DNA of 64,000 nucleotides, taken from Bartonella sp. CM31XJBT. Lineage in GTDB: Bacteria; Pseudomonadota; Alphaproteobacteria; Rhizobiales; Rhizobiaceae. Position 1 is the first letter of the stretch. Each line of letters opens with the position of its first letter. The DNA is taken from assembly GCF_028618555.1 (NCBI RefSeq), contig NZ_JAQITD010000005.1, positions 1 to 64,000 on the forward strand, written 5' to 3'. Of this stretch, positions 4,132 through 62,498 are shown in pieces. Below the pieces are notes generated by a model. That model saw only the letters and a list, made by a program, of their open reading frames with translations, was not told the origin of the DNA and did no database searches. A program made the position numbers and the translations under genes.

Positions 4132-7100
4132 ATGGCTCAGACTCACGCAATGATGTCTCAATTCAATGGTCGTAAGCGCGTACGCAAATTTTTTGGTAAG
4201 ATTCCTGAAGTAGCAGAAATGCCGAATCTTATTGAGGTTCAAAAAGCGTCATACGATCAGTTTCTCATGGTTGAGGAACCGAAAGGTGGACGACCAGATG
4301 AAGGTTTGCAAGCTGTTTTTAAATCTGTTTTTCCTATTTCAGATTTTTCCGGTACAGCTATGCTTGAGTTTGTAGGTTATGAATTTGATTTACCAAAATT
4401 TGATGTTGAAGAGTGCCGTCAACGTGATTTAACTTATGCTGCCCCATTAAAGGTCATATTGCGTTTGATTGTTTTTGATGTTGATGAGGATACTGGCTCC
4501 AAAGATATCAAAGACATTAAAGAGCAAGGCGTTTATATGGGCGATATGCCTTTAATGACGACGAATGGTACCTTTGTTGTTAATGGTACGGAGCGTGTTA
4601 TTGTTTCTCAGATGCATCGTTCTCCTGGTGTCTTTTTTGACCATGATAAAGGAAAGTCCCATTCATCAGGAAAGCTTCTTTTTGCTGCTCGTGTTATTCC
4701 GTATCGTGGTTCTTGGCTTGATATTGAGTTTGATGCTAAGGACATCGTTTATGCGCGTATTGATCGACGGCGCAAAATTCCTGTTACAAGTCTTTTGATG
4801 GCATTAGGTATGGATGCGTCAGATATTTTATCAACGTTTTATGATAAAGTGACTTATGAGCGTGATGGAGAAGGATGGCGAGTTCCTTATTCTGTTGATC
4901 GCTTTAAAGGAATGAAGCTCATTTCTGACCTTATAGATGCAGATAGTGGTGAAGTCGTTGCGGAGGCTGGTAAAAAATTAACAGTTCGTACTGCGAAGTC
5001 TTTGGCAGAAAAAGGACTTAAAGCGGTTAAAGTTAGTGAAGATGATTTATTAGGTTGTTATCTAGCCGAAGATATCGTCAATTACGAAACAGGTGAAATC
5101 TACCTTGAGGCTGGTGATGAAATTGACGAAAAAGTATTAAAAATTTTGCTTGATGTTAGTGCTGATCAAATCAATATTCTTGATATTGATCACATGAATA
5201 TTGGCGCTTACATTCGCAATACTTTGAAGGTGGATAAAAATGAAAGTCGGCAGGATGCGTTATTTGATATTTACCGAGTAATGCGTCCAGGTGAGCCTCC
5301 AACAATCGATACAGCAGAAGCAATGTTCCATTCATTGTTTTTTGATCCAGAGCGTTATGATCTTTCTGCTGTTGGGCGTGTTAAGATGAATTTGCGTATG
5401 GATCTTGATTGTCCAGACACAGTTCGCATTTTACGCCAAGAGGATATTCTTGCTGTTGTTAAGATGTTGGTTGAATTGCGTGATGGACGTGGTGAAATTG
5501 ATGATATTGATAATCTTGGCAACCGTCGCGTTCGTTCCGTTGGGGAGTTGATGGAAAATCAATATCGCATTGGTCTTCTTCGTATGGAGCGTGCGATAAA
5601 AGAGCGTATGTCATCGGTTGAAATTGATACAGTTATGCCACAGGATTTGATCAATGCAAAGCCTGCTGCAGCAGCAGTTCGTGAGTTTTTTGGGTCTTCA
5701 CAATTGTCGCAGTTTATGGATCAAACCAATCCATTGTCGGAAATTACCCATAAGCGCCGTCTTTCTGCTCTTGGTCCAGGCGGTTTGACTCGTGAACGTG
5801 CGGGTTTTGAAGTCCGTGACGTACATCCTACGCATTATGGTCGTATTTGTCCGATTGAAACACCAGAAGGCCCCAATATTGGTCTAATCAACTCCTTAGC
5901 AACATTTGCGCGAGTTAACAAATATGGCTTTATTGAAAGTCCATATCGAAAAATTATTGATGGAAAAGTTACAAAAGAAGTTATTTATCTTTCAGCGATG
6001 GAAGAAGCAAAGCATTATGTCGCTCAGGCTAATTCTTCATTAGATAGCGAAGGTCGTTTTATAGAAGAGTTTGTTGTTTGCCGTCATGCTGGTGAAGTTT
6101 TAATGGCGCCGCGTGATCATGTTGATTTGATGGATGTTTCACCAAAACAGTTGGTTTCAGTTGCAGCAGCGCTTATTCCTTTTTTGGAAAATGATGATGC
6201 GAATCGTGCACTTATGGGATCAAACATGCAGCGTCAGGCAGTTCCTCTTGTACGCGCTGAAGCACCATTTGTTGGGACGGGAATGGAATCCATAGTTGCG
6301 CGCGATTCAGGAGCTGCTGTGAGTGCAAAACGTAGTGGTGTTGTTGATCAAGTTGATGCTACCCGTATTGTTATCCGTGCAACAGAAGATTTAGATCCTT
6401 CAAAATCAGGCGTTGATATTTACCGCTTACAGAAATTTCAGCGTTCTAATCAGTCCACTTGTATTAATCAGCGTCCTCTTGTAAATGTTGGTGATAGGGT
6501 AGAAAAAGGTGATATCATTGCAGATGGTCCATCCACGGATCTTGGTGATTTGGCTCTTGGGCGGAATGTTCTCGTAGCCTTTATGCCTTGGAATGGATAC
6601 AATTATGAAGATTCTATTTTGTTATCCGAGCGCATTGTTGCTGATGATGTGTTTACTTCAATTCATATTGAGGAATTTGAAGTTGCGGCACGCGATACAA
6701 AACTTGGGCCTGAGGAAATTACGCGCGACATTCCTAATGTTGCGGAAGAAGCGTTAAGAAATCTTGATGAAGCTGGCATTATTTATATTGGTGCTGAAGT
6801 TCAACCGGGTGATATTTTAGTTGGAAAGATTACCCCAAAAGGTGAAAGTCCCATGACGCCGGAAGAAAAGCTTCTGCGTGCGATTTTTGGGGAAAAGGCA
6901 TCCGATGTTCGTGATACTTCTATGCGTATGCCTCCTGGGACTTTTGGTACTGTTGTTGAAGTTCGCGTTTTTAATCGCCATGGCGTGGAAAAAGATGAAC
7001 GTGCGATGGCAATTGAGCGTGAAGAAATTGAGCGTTTAGCAAAAGACCGTGATGATGAACAGTCTATTCTTGATCGCAATGTTTATTCGCGCCTCACCGA

Positions 7101-8280
7101 TATGTTGACAGGTAAAGTTGCTGTAGAAGGTCCGAAAGGCTTTTCGGGCAGCAAAAAGCTTGATAGTACAGTGATGGGGCATTATCCACGATCCCAGTGG
7201 TGGCAATTTGCTGTTGAGGATGAAAAACTTCAAAATGAAATTGAAGCTTTGCGCAAGCAATATGATGAATCAAAGGAAGCATTACAACGTCGCTTTATGG
7301 ATAAAGTTGAAAAGGTCCAAAGAGGTGATGAAATGCCTCCTGGTGTCATGAAAATGGTGAAGGTTTTTGTGGCTGTGAAGCGCAAAATCCAACCAGGTGA
7401 TAAGATGGCGGGACGTCACGGAAATAAGGGTGTTGTTTCACGTATTCTTCCCGTAGAAGATATGCCATTTCTTGAAGATGGGACCCATGCTGATATCGTC
7501 TTGAATCCGCTTGGTGTGCCTAGTCGTATGAATGTTGGACAAATTCTTGAGACGCACCTTGGTTGGGCATGTGCGGGGATGGGCAAGAAGATTGGTGATT
7601 TGTTAGAGTTGTATCAAGAGACTGGGGATATATTGCCGCTGCGTCAGCGTATTGAAAATCTTATGCCTGATGATAATCATAATGAACCAGTCCGTCAGTA
7701 TGATAATGAAAGCCTCTACAAATTGGCATTACAGATGAAAAAAGGGGTTTCAATTGCAACGCCTGTTTTTGATGGAGCACATGAGTCTGATATTAACATG
7801 ATGCTGGAAGACGCAGGCTTAGATAGTTCAGGGCAGGTTACGCTTTATGATGGTCGTACTGGGGAGCCTTTTGATCGTCCAGTAACGGTGGGATATATTT
7901 ACATGTTGAAATTGCATCACCTTGTTGATGATAAGATTCATGCACGTTCTATAGGTCCCTATTCACTTGTGACACAGCAGCCATTAGGAGGTAAGGCACA
8001 GTTTGGTGGTCAGCGTTTTGGTGAAATGGAGGTATGGGCACTTGAAGCTTATGGTGCTGCATACACTTTGCAGGAGATGCTAACAGTAAAATCAGATGAT
8101 GTGGCTGGGCGGACAAAAGTCTATGAGGCAATTGTGCGTGGTGATGATACATTTGAGGCAGGGATACCCGAAAGCTTTAATGTGTTGGTAAAAGAAATGC
8201 GCTCACTTGCTCTTAATGTGGAGCTTGATGATGCGCGTGAACTTATTGCACAGCGGGCATTGTCTGATACGGCAGAGTAA
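4132..8280 (+). CDS. rpoB: DNA-directed RNA polymerase subunit beta
   Basis: This is the 1382-residue beta subunit, which forms one pincer of RNA polymerase and much of the active-site channel. I chose ATG 4132 ([22 protein letters not shown]) because AAGGAG lies 6 bases upstream; the frame is open a little further. The rifampicin pocket region ([20 protein letters not shown], near residue 520) and the following [11 protein letters not shown] carry the usual sensitive residues. The C-terminal part has [15 protein letters not shown] and [24 protein letters not shown]. Length is normal for alphaproteobacteria. Confidence 0.98.
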
Positions 8281-8289
8281 TAATTCAAG

Positions 8290-8322
8290 GAGCGCACTGG
8301 AAAAAGGCTGCGCTCTTATTAC
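8290..8322 (+). terminator. Terminator-like hairpin in the rpoB-rpoC spacer
   Basis: GAGCGCA (8290-8296) pairs with TGCGCTC (8309-8315) around a 12-base loop, 9 bases after the rpoB stop, and a T-rich but interrupted tail follows. It may be a weak attenuator or an mRNA-processing hairpin in the unusually long 172-base rpoB-rpoC gap. Strong termination is unlikely unless rpoC has its own promoter in the AT-rich stretch that follows. Confidence 0.5.
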
Positions 8323-8452
8323 TTTAAGAGGCTCAATAACCTTATTAAGGCTATACAGGTCGTTTTTAAAAGTAAATGTATTTTAAAAAAGATCTGTTAT
8401 AAAATAAATGAGATATTACAACAGGTTCTAAGAATCTTTGAAGGAGAACAGC

Positions 8453-11400
8453 ATGAACCACGAGGTCATGAATCTTTTCAATCCTCAAGCGCCAGCGCAG
8501 ACATTTGACTCTATTCGTATTTCTATTGCGAGTCCTGAGAAAATTTTGTCCTGGTCGTATGGTGAGATTAAGAAGCCTGAGACTATTAATTATCGGACTT
8601 TTAAACCAGAACGTGATGGTCTTTTTTGTGCACGTATATTTGGCCCTATTAAGGACTATGAGTGTCTATGTGGCAAATATAAACGCATGAAGTATAAGGG
8701 CATTATTTGTGAAAAATGCGGTGTAGAGGTTACTCTTTCGCGCGTACGTCGTGAGCGTATGGGGCATATTGAACTTGCGGCACCTGTTGCACATATATGG
8801 TTTCTTAAATCATTACCAGGTCGTATTTCTACACTTTTAGATTTAACTTTAAAAGATATTGAGCGGGTTCTTTATTTTGAGAATTATATTGTAACCGAAC
8901 CAGGATTGACATCTCTTAAGCTCCATCAGCTTCTTTCTGAAGAAGAATATATGCTTGCTATTGATGAGTTCGGAGAAGATCAATTTACAGCTATGATTGG
9001 CGCTGAAGCTATTTACGAGCTTTTAGCTAGTATGGAGTTAGATAAAATCGCTAATGATTTGCGTCTCGAATTAGCTGAAACAACTTCAGAGTTAAAGCAG
9101 AAAAAATTGATTAAACGACTTAAAATCGTTGAAAATTTTCTTGAATCTGGGAATAAGCCAGAGTGGATGATAATGAAAACAATTCCGGTTATTCCACCGG
9201 ATTTGCGTCCATTGGTTCCGCTTGATGGTGGGCGTTTTGCGACATCCGATCTGAATGATCTTTATCGGCGTGTTATTAATCGTAATAACCGCTTGAAACG
9301 GCTGATTGAATTGCGTGCTCCTGGAATTATCGTGCGCAATGAAAAGCGTATGGTACAAGAAGCTGTTGATGCATTGTTTGATAATGGACGGCGTGGGCGT
9401 GTGATTACTGGAGCCAATAAACGTCCTCTCAAGTCTCTATCAGATATGTTGAAGGGCAAGCAAGGACGGTTTCGTCAGAACTTACTTGGGAAGCGAGTTG
9501 ATTACTCGGGGCGTTCTGTTATCGTGACGGGTCCTGAATTAAAATTGCATCAATGTGGTCTTCCTAAAAAAATGGCTCTTGAATTATTTAAGCCTTTTAT
9601 TTATGCGCGGCTTGATGCAAAAGGCTATTCATCAACGGTAAAGCAGGCAAAGAAGCTTGTTGAAAAAGAACATCCAGAAGTTTGGGATATCTTGGATGAG
9701 GTTATTCGTGAACACCCTGTTTTACTCAACCGTGCGCCAACATTGCACCGTTTGGGGATTCAGGCTTTTGAACCTATCTTAATTGAAGGCAAAGCTATTC
9801 AACTTCATCCACTGGTGTGTACTGCTTTTAATGCAGATTTTGATGGTGATCAGATGGCGGTTCACGTTCCGCTTTCTCTTGAAGCACAGCTTGAAGCCCG
9901 TGTTTTGATGATGTCCACCAATAATATTCTTCATCCGGCCAATGGTGCTCCCATTATTGTTCCCTCACAGGATATGGTTCTTGGTCTTTATTATCTTTCA
10001 ATTGTTTCTGAAAAAGAACCAGGTGAAGGAATGGCCTTTTCTGATATAGGTGAGCTTCATTATGCCTTGGAAAATAAGGTTGTAACGCTTCATACGAAGA
10101 TTAAAGGCCGTGTTAAGAATATTGGGAAGGATGGAAAAGAAGTTTCTAAACTTTATGATACGACACCTGGTCGTTTGATTATCGGTGAGCTTTTGCCAAG
10201 AAGTGCGGATATCTCATTTGATATTGTCAATCAAGAGATGACAAAAAAGAATATTTCTAAAATGATTGATCATGTTTATCGGCACTGTGGACAAAAAGAG
10301 ACGGTTATTTTTTGTGACCGTATTATGCAGCTTGGCTTTTCTTATGCTTGTCGTGCAGGAATTTCATTCGGTAAGGACGATATGGTTATTCCTGATAGTA
10401 AGTCGCGTTTAGTTGCAGAAACAGAAGCTTTGGCTAAGGAGTACGAACAGCAATATAATGATGGTTTGATTACACAAGGTGAAAAATACAATAAGGTTGT
10501 AGATGCTTGGGGTAAGTGTACAGATCGCGTTGCAGATGAAATGATGAAACGTATTCAAGCCGTCGATTTTGATCCTAAAACAGGTCGTCAACGGCCGATG
10601 AATTCGATCTATATGATGTCGCACTCTGGTGCTCGTGGTTCTGCTAATCAGATGAGACAATTGGCCGGTATGCGTGGATTAATGGCAAAACCATCGGGTG
10701 AAATTATTGAAACGCCCATTATTTCAAATTTTAAAGAAGGTCTAACTGTTAATGAGTACTTCAATTCCACGCATGGTGCACGTAAAGGACTTGCTGATAC
10801 TGCTTTAAAGACGGCGAACTCTGGTTATTTAACACGGCGTCTTGTTGATGTTGCACAGGATGCTATTATTTCAGCAGTTGATTGTGGTACCGCAAAAGGG
10901 CTTACCATGCAGCCGATTGTTGATGCAGGACAAATTGTTGCCTCCATTGGGCAAAGAATTCTTGGTCGTACAGCGCTTGTTGATATTCTACATCCTGTCT
11001 CTGGAGAAGTTATCCTTGAAGGTGGAGCAATGATTGAGGAAGCTGATGTCGCGAAGATTGAAGCAGCTGGGATTCAATCTGTTCAAATTCGTTCTGCTTT
11101 AACATGTGAAACACGTCTTGGTGTTTGTGCAAAATGCTATGGTCGTGATTTGGCGCGTGGAACACCTGTTAATCAGGGAGAAGCCGTTGGTGTTATTGCT
11201 GCTCAATCCATTGGTGAGCCGGGAACACAGCTTACTATGCGTACTTTCCACTTAGGAGGAACTGCGCAGGTTGTTGATTCATCGTATTTAGAGGCATCTT
11301 ATGAAGGTAAGGTGGAGATTCGTAATCGTAATGTGGTTCGTAACTCTGAAGGCCAATTGGTTGTTATGGGGCGTAATATGGCTATCCTTATCAAGGATGA

Positions 11401-14831: not shown

Positions 14832-16223
14832 GTGTTTCTATCTGTTTTTGAACTTTTTAAAATTGGGATTGGTCCTTCTAGCTCACATACGATGGGACCG
14901 ATGACAGCTGCTAATATGTTTTTGCAAAAGATAGGAGATTTTTCTCAGTCGTCTGATATTCAAGTTTCTCGTATACGTGTTTATCTTTATGGTTCTTTAG
15001 CTTTCACGGGTATTGGTCATGCAACAGATAGGGCTATCATATTAGGACTTTTAGGAGAAAAAGCTTCTACTGTTGATCCTGATAGCATGGGGTTTCTGTT
15101 AGAAAAAGTTATACGTGAAAAAAAAGTGCAACCAGAAGGCCATCCCGCTTATCAGTTTGATGTGCAATGTGATCTTATTTTTGAACGAAAGCAAATCCTC
15201 CCTGGACATACAAATGGACTAGCCTTTGAAGGACTTAATACTGATGGGAATGTTCTGTTGCGGCAGATTTATTATTCTATCGGCGGTGGCTTTGTTGTGA
15301 CTGAGGATGAATTAAGCCATATGAATGATAATATACAACCAAAAGCATTTGAGGTACCATATCCATTCGATTCTGCTTGTACAATGTTATCAATGGCAGA
15401 AAAATCAGGACTTTCAATTGCTGAAATGAAGCGCTTAAATGAAGAAACAAAGATAGAGCGTTCTTCTCTTGATGTAGGGCTTGATGAAATTTTTTCAGCG
15501 ATGACAAATTGCATTGATAGAGGTCTTTCACAAGAAGGTGAGTTGCCTGGTGGATTGCGTGTTCTAAGGCGTGCTAAAAAGCTGCATGAAACGCTTTTGG
15601 AAAATCAAAGGAAAAATCACAATTATCCACTTTGGGCAAATGATTGGCTTTCGGTATATGCCATAGCAGTCAATGAGGAAAATGCAGCAGGTGGTCGTGT
15701 TGTTACAGCACCAACAAATGGAGCAGCTGGTGTCGTTCCAGCAGTTTTGCGTTATTATCTTCAATTTAATGATGATTCAGATCGAGAGGGAATACATAAT
15801 TTTCTATTAACGGCAGCAGCTATAGGCGGTGTTATCAAACATAATGCCTCTATTTCTGGTGCAGAAGTTGGGTGTCAAGGTGAAGTTGGAACGGCATCTT
15901 CAATGGCCGCAGCAGGGTTGACCGCAGCATTAGGTGGAACACCAGCTCAAATTGAAAATGCGGCAGAAATTGCGCTTGAACATCATTTGGGAATGACATG
16001 TGATCCTGTTGCAGGTCTTGTACAAGTTCCTTGTATTGAGCGTAATGCAATGGGAGCTGTTAAGGCGGTAACGGCTTCTTCTCTTGCATTATATGGTAAT
16101 GGAGATCATTTTGTTTCTCTTGATGCTTGTATAGAAACAATGCGCCAGACTGGTCATGATATGAGTGAACGCTATAAAGAGACAAGTAAAGGTGGTCTTG
16201 CAGTCAATGCAATATCTTGTTAA
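14832..16223 (+). CDS. sdaA: L-serine dehydratase (single-chain, iron-sulfur type)
   Basis: This 463-residue enzyme deaminates L-serine to pyruvate and ammonia with a [4Fe-4S] cluster. The N-terminal beta domain starts at [21 protein letters not shown]. The alpha domain has the conserved cysteine segments [19 protein letters not shown] and [21 protein letters not shown]; a further cysteine is at the end (AVNAISC), which in the family acts as a tail cysteine at the cluster. GTG 14832 is the start, preceded by GAGGTGA. It is the single-polypeptide form seen in proteobacteria rather than the split sdaAA/sdaAB. It may feed pyruvate from host amino acids. Confidence 0.95.
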
Positions 16224-16800
16224 GAGCTAGAACATTTTTCAATCCATAACTGGACGTTTTGGAGAAGAATCATATTTCCTGATAAAGCTTATGTTTTTTG
16301 TTCCTTATAAATCAAAACTCCAAATTAATTCAGCAGCATGCTTAAAATAAATTTGAGATGGCTCAGTGCTTTCTTAACGAATAGTAGCTGTTGATACAAG
16401 TTTGGAGAGAGCGTATTGTTGATATATGTTTGATTTGTCCTAAAATGGAAAAAATAAAAAAGCGTAAAGTAAAATTAGTGATCAATTTACCATTATTTTT
16501 TAGCTGGGTTTTATGGTTTTAAAAAGTTTCCATAGCCATATCTTTTAAGTAATGGAAGATTATACCTGAGTATCTAAGGAAAATTTATTTTAAATCTGAA
16601 TAATTATGATAAAGAGAGATTTTTAAAGATTTTAATTTTTTAAAAGTGAAGTTTTTTGCTACCTATATGGTAAAAAAATATCTTGAAAAGAAACACTAAT
16701 TTACAATAATTAAAGATATATTGGGAATATCTTTTTTATTTATAAATTCTGTACCGACAAAAAAATTAAAATAAATAATAACGTATACATTAGGAAATAT
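16224..16800. other. AT-rich gene-free stretch after sdaA
   Basis: About 580 bases have stop codons in all frames and very low GC. I see no terminator with a clear stem, no RNA gene and no coding similarity. It forms the left part of the decayed island that runs to 18.0 kb. Confidence 0.5.
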
Positions 16801-16814
16801 TTATAAAAATTTTC

Positions 16815-17035
16815 ATGAGAATAGAATGCACACGATAGAACATTATCGTGTTACTTGTTCGTGAGTTCGTTTAAAAAATATCTCTCAACGCTCCTAAGCT
16901 CATTTCGCGATGGCACCCGTGAATGATATAATAACGGTAAATCCATTGAGCTGTTCCATCTTTATGCTTAATAAAAAGAGTACGCTGGGCATGATTGCAC
17001 ACTTTGCCAAGCCCCCCGTACAGGGATCAAAGCCC
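16815..17035 (-). pseudogene. Remnant of a phage-type tyrosine integrase (N-terminal arm-binding part)
   Basis: Read on the minus strand, bases about 17010-16871 translate without a stop into FIKHKDGTAQWIYRYYIIHG followed by CHREMSLGALRDIF. This closely follows the DUF4102/arm-DNA-binding region of P4-like integrases (pattern: DGxAQWxxRYxIHGRRREMxLGALRDxSL). Further on, NELTN and VLSCAFYSHEN, each after a stop or gap, resemble the following ARELAxxWRSVLxxGxDP stretch. The rest of the enzyme, including the catalytic Arg-His-Arg-Tyr domain, is missing. The stretch is visibly less AT-rich than its surroundings. An open frame on the opposite strand (16910-17140) is a shadow. Confidence 0.6.
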
Positions 17036-17129
17036 TTAGCATTTGAAATGGTTCATTATAGGTATTTTGAGTATTTTGGGTACAGTTTTACGCCACACAC
17101 TAATCTCGCCCATAACATGCAAGAGAACG

Positions 17130-17265
17130 GTTTTTATTAATTCAACATAAACAAATTTCAAATGAGAGAATCTTACGATATTCGAGATTATCATCTAACA
17201 TGAAAAATAATGAATTATCTTTATAAATCAGCATCTTGAATATGAATAGTATAATGTAAGTCATT
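17130..17265. repeat. Diverged direct repeat, copy 1
   Basis: This block aligns by eye with 17462-17600. Shared landmarks in order are ATTCAAxATAA, GAGAATxTTACGA, ATGxAAAAATAA, ATTAT and TATAAAT. The copies are diverged, with small gaps. It lies just right of the integrase remnant. Confidence 0.45.
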
Positions 17266-17461
17266 CCATGGATGGTATAAAATCTATAGAGTATTAGCAT
17301 CTTTATTTATAAAGGGAGAAAACCAGCACTATCATCCTTTTTTCAACGTTCAATGTTACAAAAGATCCTCGTACTTGAAATAATTCATAAGGGATATTTG
17401 ATTCCTTTTTTAAATAGTTTATATGCCAATCTTTCTCGTGATGAGCAGGCGGACGATTTTG

Positions 17462-17600
17462 ACTGATTCAATATAAGAAGGAAAATAAGAGAATTTTACG
17501 AAAATCTCTTATTCAATATGCAAAAAATAAATTATAATTATAAATTAAAATCTTATGGAAATCGTTATCATAATATTTAATCTGATAATTTCTTTTACGT
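17462..17600. repeat. Diverged direct repeat, copy 2, with a perfect hairpin
   Basis: This is the second copy of the block at 17130-17265. It contains a long inverted repeat, AATAAGAG (17484-17491) with CTCTTATT (17506-17513), continued inward by ATTTT/AAAAT with one bulged A. No T-run follows on the plus strand, so a terminator is not clear. Confidence 0.45.
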
Positions 17601-18333: not shown

Positions 18334-19683
18334 TTAGTAGGCTACAGTATAGCAGTTAAAATTTGCTTTCTTTAATGTAGAACAAGCATCAAATGCAGCT
18401 TTTTTTGATTGAAACCCTGTAAAGCGCGCCCGGTAATAACGCTGCCCATTCTTTTCAAACAGTTGCATATGTGAAGATGCGTGCTTTAAAGTAGAAAAAG
18501 CTATATTTTTTGCTTTTAAAAGTAGAGTTTTTGCTTGTTCTTCACTAGGAAGAGAACCTATTTGGATAGCCCATCCGGCATTTTCGGACAAAGAGGCTGT
18601 TACAATTTTATGAGTCTCAACCGGTATAGTTTTTTGAGGGTTCGGTATTGGTATAATTACCTTATTTACAGCCGTTATTGCGATGTTGGAGTTTTTAGGT
18701 TGTTCTGCAAATGCTGTCAACATAGTCGAAATTTCATCGTCAAAATTACTTAAATCATCTTTAATGGTTGGTATAGGAGTATTGGCGCCAGTGGGTAAGT
18801 GATAGCGTACAGAAGCTATTAAACGTTCACCACTTTTCATTTGGCTTGCTTTGGGCAAATATTGATTCAATAAGCTAGCCATATGCTCGTCACGTGCAGT
18901 AGATGATTTTCCTCCCATAACAACAGCGACAATAGAGCGCCCCTCAAGACGCATCGAAGTTGCTAAATTAGAACCTGACATTTGTGTGTATCCTGTTTTA
19001 ATTCCATCGACACCTTTCATTATTTTAACAAGTTTATTGTGGCTGTTAATTTTATGTCCACGGAAATTAAAACTTTTTGTTTTGAACAATTTATATTGTT
19101 TGGGAAAATGTTTACGTAAAGCTAAGGACAAAGTCGCTATATCTCGTGCTGTAGAATAATTGCGCACATCCGGAAGTCCTGAAGCATTTGCGAAATGTGT
19201 ATGTTTCATGCCAAGTTTATGAGCTTTTGCTGTCATCATTTGAGCGAATTTTTTTTCACTACCTCCAAGATATTCTGCAATGGCAGCAGCAACATCATTT
19301 GCAGATCTTGTAATGAGTGCTTTAGCTGCTGATTCTGCAGAAATTGTTTGGCCTGCTTTAAACCCAATTTTTGTCGGTGGACGCATTGCTGCATAATGTG
19401 AAACAGGAATTGGTGTATTGGGTGTCACACGACGCATCTGCATAGCTTCAAAGAGTAAGTACAATGTCATCATTTTTGTTAAAGAAGCAGGATAACGTTT
19501 CAGTGTTGCATTGGCTTGAAATAGAGTTTTTCCCGTAGTAGCATCTATAACAATAGCTGCATACTTATCAGGATAGGCGCCTTGAGGTGTGGCTGATGCC
19601 CAACAGTAAGAAAAAGCTAACACAACAAAAGAAATTGCTATTGTTTTACAGTAGCGCATAATTTTTTGATAATTAATATACAC
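18334..19683 (-). CDS. D-alanyl-D-alanine carboxypeptidase with C-terminal SPOR domain
   Basis: A 449-residue periplasmic penicillin-binding protein of the S11 (DacA/DacF) type that trims the terminal D-Ala from peptidoglycan stem peptides. A signal peptide or membrane anchor covers residues about 9-31. All three active-site motifs are intact: SLTK at 67-70, SAN at 127-129 and KTG at 229-231. A linker of about 100 residues leads to a SPOR-like domain at about 372-449 (AGWAIQIGSLPSEEQAKTLL), which binds septal glycan strands denuded of peptides. The fusion suggests targeting to the division site. An alternative start is the internal ATG at residue 9. Confidence 0.92.
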   Translation of the reverse strand: MYINYQKIMRYCKTIAISFVVLAFSYCWASATPQGAYPDKYAAIVIDATTGKTLFQANATLKRYPASLTKMMTLYLLFEAMQMRRVTPNTPIPVSHYAAMRPPTKIGFKAGQTISAESAAKALITRSANDVAAAIAEYLGGSEKKFAQMMTAKAHKLGMKHTHFANASGLPDVRNYSTARDIATLSLALRKHFPKQYKLFKTKSFNFRGHKINSHNKLVKIMKGVDGIKTGYTQMSGSNLATSMRLEGRSIVAVVMGGKSSTARDEHMASLLNQYLPKASQMKSGERLIASVRYHLPTGANTPIPTIKDDLSNFDDEISTMLTAFAEQPKNSNIAITAVNKVIIPIPNPQKTIPVETHKIVTASLSENAGWAIQIGSLPSEEQAKTLLLKAKNIAFSTLKHASSHMQLFEKNGQRYYRARFTGFQSKKAAFDACSTLKKANFNCYTVAY

Positions 19684-58948: not shown

Positions 58949-59025
<77 letters not shown>

Positions 59026-62100: not shown

Positions 62101-62498
62101 TGGTTTAAAGCTGCCATCATCAGTTGAGTGAACTCAACAATGGTGGAGTTTTATCCATTGGCGGAAATCTGATGTTTGAAAGAGGCTTTCTTGATATAAA
62201 GGTAATATTGTAATAAATAATTATTATAAATCAATATGTTGTATATATTCATTGTTTTTTAGATTAATGACCATTGACAAATAATTTTGCATCATTTTCT
62301 CTCTTCCAGCTTTTTGTCAATCATCAATGAAAATTTTTTGTAATGGAAAGTTCATTGATAACATAACTTTTGTATGTTCATTATTTTACGCTTAAAAAAA
62401 TATAAAAATAATGAAATGCAATTGAGTTATCAACTTCTTATTTTTTTCAATTTTTAATCATAAAAAAATCTTTTTATTCGTTTTGCTTATAAAAAGAA
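62101..62498. other. AT-rich stretch before the TerC-type gene
   Basis: About 400 bases with no open frame of interest. It probably includes the transcription end of the leftward gene that stops at 62499, but I see no clean stem with a T-run on that strand. Confidence 0.4.

Follow-up and report, generated by a model that had tools for sequence, protein, structure and literature searches.

Integrase fragments with one exact left end behind sdaA and across Bartonella genomes

Related systems and the intact copies

Tyrosine integrases are, to our knowledge, regarded as conservative, two-ended and site-specific, and typical P4-type elements are found at one site or a small number of sites, in many cases tRNA genes. 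Tn916-like conjugative transposons combine a tyrosine recombinase with many AT-rich targets and a short variable overlap beside a conserved end; we know of no truncated, one-ended insertions among them. IS91-type elements and truncated LINEs, which rely on a HUH transposase or a reverse transcriptase, respectively, possess one exact and one variable end and leave many truncated copies, and MITEs have two fixed ends. The fragments described here lie in a stretch of 64,000 nucleotides from Bartonella sp. CM31XJBT (contig NZ_JAQITD010000005.1, positions 1 to 64,000; hereafter the window). Their family shares with Tn916-like elements the recombinase type, the many AT-rich targets and the short variable overlap beside a conserved end; with IS91-type elements and LINEs it shares the exact end, the variable end and the many truncated copies, although a tyrosine recombinase is found here. 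The likeness to MITEs consists of short, non-coding, dispersed sequences in very many copies, although the right end varies in the present family.

The fha-repeat islands of B. grahamii (PMC2697382) come from the same genus and the nearest species, and the full copies discussed below probably belong to these islands or to sister islands. The available portion of that article makes no mention of dispersed truncated left ends, an exact terminus or the sdaA site, all of which are features here. Prophage excision between short repeats is described in the accessible part of another paper (PMC10684924), and the word "integrase" is absent from the accessible main text of a third (PMC3610622). A search of open-licence papers by title and start of abstract found no description of the element family.

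An intact integrase (locus L048, 9893-11038) carries Arm-DNA-bind_3, Phage_int_M and Phage_integrase in one open reading frame, above the cut-off, and the best relatives found outside the genus belong to a Sinorhizobium meliloti replicon (63%) and to Sulfitobacter phages (42%). The gene that follows the integrase is small, encodes an AlpA-like helix-turn-helix (HTH) protein and resembles phage excisionases (PHROGs 9834 and 66); the profile of this integrase-AlpA module comprises 1,785 positions. Of 42 long copies, 32 keep a stretch of 378 or more codons open, and the other 10 do not. The left flanks of these 42 copies fall into 31 groups, and the right flanks past the AlpA-like gene, available for 39 copies, form groups of 29, 9 and 1. 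Integrase, AlpA-like gene and primase/helicase occur together in L168 and L172, the only two stretches annotated, and the first two genes also in L048; the cargo of the two stretches includes DUF3987, a DUF7146/Toprim primase, a helicase, a Type ISP restriction-modification enzyme and an N4-gp56 capsid gene. The integrase domains, the excisionase-like HTH gene and the DUF7146/Toprim and DUF3987 cargo thus recall P4-type integrase elements and phage satellites, whereas the 31 left-flank groups among 42 copies and the very many truncated copies do not. Overall, the family is best read as an integrative element that consists of a P4-like tyrosine integrase, a small AlpA-like HTH gene and then variable cargo, and that has spread through many Bartonella.

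Ordinary host genes, such as that for ketol-acid reductoisomerase, also occur in the cargo stretches, which therefore do not fix the far limits of the islands; a search of 24 stretches for the right end of a whole island gave no convincing one, with direct repeats (at most one mismatch) present in some. A solo IS-like element of 1.8 kb, made up of the integrase and AlpA-like genes only, had been suggested by common match ends and was rejected because 38 of 39 copies continue past the AlpA-like gene into right flanks of shared cargo. Separately, an intact integrase in L168 is followed by a 1,657-codon cargo gene (4930-9900, plus strand) whose product has Type ISP restriction-modification domains; it is likely a phage defence gene.

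Three integrase pieces behind sdaA

The initial annotation of the window had recorded a single fossil fragment of the N-terminal arm-binding domain of a tyrosine integrase on the minus strand at 16815-17035, in otherwise gene-free DNA and with the catalytic domain gone. Such a fragment does exist, and it forms part of copy A (16835-17238, minus strand), which consists of the left end plus the 5′ portion of the integrase gene (module profile positions 2-396). Better-preserved family members in this genome yielded a profile that matches copy A at 16847-17238 on the minus strand (nhmmer E 2.4e-55), and tblastn with the intact integrase matches amino acids 14-62 (E 2.6e-10). Within it, the minus-strand frame NHAQRTLFIKHKDGTAQWIYRYYIIHGCHREMSLGALRDIF at 16874-16996 shares 59% identity over 41 amino acids with an intact integrase from this genome (single pair, E 2e-12); the match of the fragment to Pfam Arm-DNA-bind_3 (E 0.014) falls under the gathering score and is weak by itself. 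The first 110 positions of copy A (17131-17238, minus strand; left terminus 17239) were recognized at E 2.5e-23 by R1, a sequence-only model of the left end that was built from 33 copies of the same genome outside the window.

The interval first reported was accordingly too narrow, since the family match extends to 17238, and the fragment is not isolated, since two more pieces were matched at 17266-17553 and 16212-16556. The latter, copy B (about 16214-16560, minus strand), represents the middle of the integrase gene (profile 459-834; nhmmer E 4.5e-24) and reaches the sdaA stop; tblastn matches amino acids 89-129 (E 7e-7) in a frame other than that of copy A. Copy B is probably the continuation of copy A, that is, one gene copy split by an AT-rich spacer (16561-16834, no strand assigned). 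A stretch homologous to the spacer stands at the same place in related species, and its matches among the loci compared lie at the orthologous place, except for one 125-bp match in L178; the order of copy A, spacer and copy B recurs in B. grahamii (L153), B. massiliensis (L124) and Bartonella sp. AU16XJBT (L122). It may be observed in its own right that a spacer of 19.7% GC interrupts an integrase copy at the same point in several species. The third piece, copy C (about 17266-17555, minus strand; left terminus 17556), is a further left end (profile 3-312) that adjoins the host flank, with matches by nhmmer (E 3e-22, 17266-17553) and by R1 (E 1.3e-11, 17457-17555).

The comparison with integrases that had been proposed for this fragment thus returned matches by both tblastn and DNA profile, and as a control the profile found nothing at E≤10 in the reversed window or in 20 block-shuffled windows. 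The loss of the catalytic domain was likewise confirmed: the pieces in the window stop at profile position 834 of 1785, and tblastn with the intact protein finds no window match past amino acid 129, the Phage_integrase domain occupying amino acids 205-362. "Gene-free" remains correct with respect to genes; it misleads in that 16224-17556 consists largely of integrase-derived DNA and of DNA enclosed between integrase pieces. A mobile origin of the dead integrase fragment was supported as well, although the compositional argument for acquired DNA was not, with copy A at 36.5% GC against 37.5% for the window and 43.7% for the intact integrase reading frame; copy A looks distinct because the adjoining spacer region (16557-16846) has only 19.7% GC. 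The window fragment is best read as a dead, truncated left-end copy of an integrative element with a P4-like tyrosine integrase.

The target gene, sdaA (14832-16223, plus strand), encodes L-serine dehydratase in a reading frame of 463 amino acids with Pfam SDH_alpha and SDH_beta, and is apparently undamaged. Its convergent neighbour, a D-alanyl-D-alanine carboxypeptidase gene with a SPOR domain (18334-19683, minus strand; Pfam Peptidase_S11 and SPOR), was used as the probe for orthologous loci, of which 43 were found, 39 of them from Bartonella, with a top identity of 98% in B. grahamii ATCC 700132. In the empty relatives B. washoeensis (L133), L136, L143 and L144, the equivalent of window position 17570 onward begins at most about 17 bp after the sdaA stop; because this DNA adjoins the stop there, window 16224-17556 is an insertion of about 1.33 kb at the sdaA 3′ end, holding copies A, B and C. 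Its right edge is marked by the core ACAAGATATTG (16210-16220, minus strand), located in the final codons of sdaA; the left edge bears a decayed second core, ATAAGATTTTA (17546-17556, minus strand), which equals the sdaA core at 8 of 11 positions. Among species with an empty site, the sdaA end reads ACAAGATATTG in L136 and L144 and ACAGGATATTG in L133, L137, L138 and L141; ACAAGATATTG is also the commonest core among 89 left ends located off the window contig (8/89). When scored with a core matrix derived from these left ends over about 22,700 positions per locus, the sdaA end ranks first in L136, L143 and L144, second in L133 and third in L130; in the other five of the ten loci, its rank was lower (15th, 393rd) or the pattern used failed to locate it.

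An integrase piece occurs in the intergenic region downstream of sdaA in 25 of the 39 named loci and in none of the remaining 14. These 25 are not all insertions at the sdaA end, as L130, L134 and L137 keep ancestral DNA after sdaA and have the piece elsewhere. In Bartonella sp. ML70XJBT.G (L139), a young truncated piece (positions 4-1282) stops at the sdaA end and is bordered on each side by core-like sequence; this is a separate insertion, and the site has therefore been hit at least twice. The core rule is not general, for no core-like junction sequence was found at seven loci of four other integrase-free (empty) sites, where the best scores ranged from -9.5 to 3.4. The tRNA site that had been suspected for the fragment is not the site of insertion either: the two tRNAs of the window lie at 163-238 and 58949-59025, and the insertion is at the sdaA 3′ end.

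The left end and its copy number

The genome assembly comprises 2,351,308 bases in 85 contigs, and integrase segments were counted in 411,459 of these bases, a sample that is biased because its stretches were chosen around matches. It holds 101 segments, 61 of which begin at profile positions 1-9; the terminus of these 61 left ends is identical to the base, RYAANRYATTGATTTATAATGATAAT-like from the first base, and the 70 positions preceding it carry at most 0.32 bits each. Model R1 matches all 150 scored candidates of the genome, each at E≤2.5e-6, which amounts to at least 150 copies, the 33 training copies included. Interior models applied to the same genome at E≤0.001 match 115 of 150 scored candidates for positions 250-360 and 23 of 150 for positions 900-1010.

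Ten other genomes of the genus were compared at E≤1e-5. Left-end and interior counts, respectively, are at least 149 and 18 in G056, at least 150 and 26 in G049, at least 150 and 39 in G035, at least 143 and 21 in G016, and at least 150 and 24 in G022, left-end values at or near 150 being lower bounds; they are 19 and 2 in G009, 71 and 7 in G047, and 25 and 2 in G033, and the within-genus negative controls G015 and G020 give 1 and 0, and 0 and 0. The steep fall from left end to interior hence recurs in eight of the ten, with a ratio of about 4 to 12 or more, the exact value being uncertain because fossil and intact copies entered the training sets of the models in differing proportions. When the left part of an intact copy served as a DNA query, 42 of 61 genomes of the genus gave a match, the present one included. 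At orthologous places for 24 left ends of this genome, a left end stands at the same junction in 25 of 40 cases and is absent from 15; many copies are old, because 17 of the 24 sites are common to at least one of three relatives.

These counts bear directly on the view, taken in the initial annotation, that a lone old integrase entered a single time, at a tRNA or prophage site, and is now eroding. The fragment is indeed degenerate and integrase-derived; however, the site holds three pieces with no tRNA near, all 150 scored candidates match the left end, and plain erosion fails to explain one exact left end together with the loss of the right part across many copies. As a full account, this view is already contradicted, and we attach next to no probability to it. 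In the sampled sequence of this genome, one of 62 left ends lies within 300 bp of a tRNA.

The right ends of the 62 left-end copies are spread over positions 103 to 1785, with 58 of them ending by 1238; one of the 62 reaches the edge of its contig, and the local alignment of an old copy may break off early. This spread also weighs on a proposal in which the left end and a few hundred base pairs form a non-autonomous mobile unit, moved in trans by the intact integrase in the manner of MITEs or SINEs. Discrete inserts of only 250-370 bp and the very high copy number agree with such a unit, but the right ends, scattered from about 200 to 1238, lack a single common end, and we consider it improbable. 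A direct repeat of the core downstream was tried as a general marker of the right end and rejected, since with at most one mismatch it showed no excess over upstream (2/50 versus 8/50). Two further observations concern the left end itself. An inverted repeat of the type TTGAATGAGA...TCTCATTTCAA, recognized by eye at about positions 43-80 of the left-end model, is common to the left ends and is possibly a candidate binding site or hairpin. Elsewhere in the window, 62165-62241 (minus strand) gives a weak R1 match (E 0.0021) with a near-perfect core, and is probably another short fossil.

Joins to host DNA, insertion and deletion

A total of 91 distinct truncated copies were examined, both flanks could be paired in 12, and eight of these 12 were read by eye. 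Three of the eight were dropped, namely L045, where the target is paralogous, L188, where the insertion is at another left end, and copy C of the window, whose left end is also present in the compared locus. The five clear truncated insertions are C8:12420 (end position 306), C23:74588 (969) and C78:16269 (257) of the present genome, an inverted copy D in L122 (1138), and L204 (363), the last nested inside another integrase gene. All five have the fixed left end, a variable right end and an otherwise intact target, and the insert length equals the fragment length within about 45 bp. At the right join, element and host share microhomology of 7, 5, 5, 5 and 4 bp; for random junctions the mean sum is 3.7, and a sum of 26 was reached in none of 20,000 sets. 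If 3 bp of slack is allowed on each side, that sum is reached in 14 of 3,000 random sets; this is the fairer figure because the joins were chosen by eye.

The exact left end, the microhomologous and variable right end, and the fall in copy number over 0.9 kb therefore point to insertion that often ends early. Insertion driven by the integrase, with a fixed left end and usually stopping a few hundred base pairs in, is the preferred reading, for which we hold the balance to be level; we infer from sequence comparison both that truncation would occur during insertion and that the integrase would drive it. In this scheme, full copies would supply the integrase, and the left core (RYAANRYATTG-like) would be joined exactly to a chromosomal site, here the sdaA 3′ end. 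The right junction would usually not be made at the true end of the element; instead, the host would be rejoined a few hundred base pairs in, at a few base pairs of microhomology, with a short target duplication at truncated insertions where readable. Most insertions would be dead from the start, drift and decay would follow, and additional insertions, in one orientation or the other, would later land where a dead copy lies. With somewhat less confidence, we tentatively propose a tyrosine integrase that is mostly one-ended, whereby exact joining at one core is followed by replication or repair that copies only a few hundred base pairs of the element before switching back to the chromosome at microhomology.

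The main rival is deletion after whole integration, which yields the same final structure: whole islands would integrate at many sites and later be deleted, often from attR to a microhomology inside the integrase gene, so that the fragment is a remnant beside attL. Microhomology is typical of deletions too, and there are intact copies that carry cargo. The fha-repeats, 10-28 kb long, have integrase genes at their flanks, according to the available portion of the article (PMC2697382). The C12 site carries a truncated integrase in sister genomes as against a long one in the present genome; an overall identity of 81-83% (G010, G026) suggests that these pieces are not the same insertion, and wider own-genome copies of this site did not discriminate insertion from deletion. 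On the other hand, this rival needs one end of the deletion to fall exactly at the host edge every time and the other to fall at most about 1.2 kb from the left end, as the 58 of 62 copies ending by 1238 demand, and the same fall is seen in eight other genomes while intact copies run on into cargo. We regard deletion of whole islands as possible, though on the doubtful side.

If early-ending insertion is true, a family with one exact end, one variable end and at least 150 copies, most of them truncated, in 2.35 Mb of genome would represent a new result for tyrosine integrases, and one-ended integration would be the tyrosine-recombinase counterpart of truncated LINEs or of one-ended IS91 transposition. 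More than 100 dead copies per genome would have been seeded in several rodent-associated Bartonella, and the family would explain part of the seemingly empty AT-rich intergenic DNA in such genomes, placing repeats capable of fuelling deletions and rearrangements beside core genes such as sdaA.

Rearranged copies occur at several loci related to the window. In L122, the inverted copy D stands head to head with copy A, with 236 identities in 314 aligned columns between the arms; the resulting palindrome of integrase copies (7151-8610) has a dyad that is absent from L119, L121 and L125 and, with other breakpoints, from L123 and L126. We infer that two different deletions removed the dyad in these relatives, which would constitute a natural record of palindrome loss. 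In seven related loci, the inverted piece D starts near profile position 366-395, where copy A ends; an internal att site at about this position was considered and set aside for palindrome loss, L122 keeping both arms. In Bartonella sp. B1099, a full-length integrase copy lies beside D (L118, 7160-9701). The sdaA flank of this strain is on a contig (G016:C1:1347880-1349133) other than that of the carboxypeptidase flank, and this points to a rearrangement at the repeat, or a misassembly, at this place.
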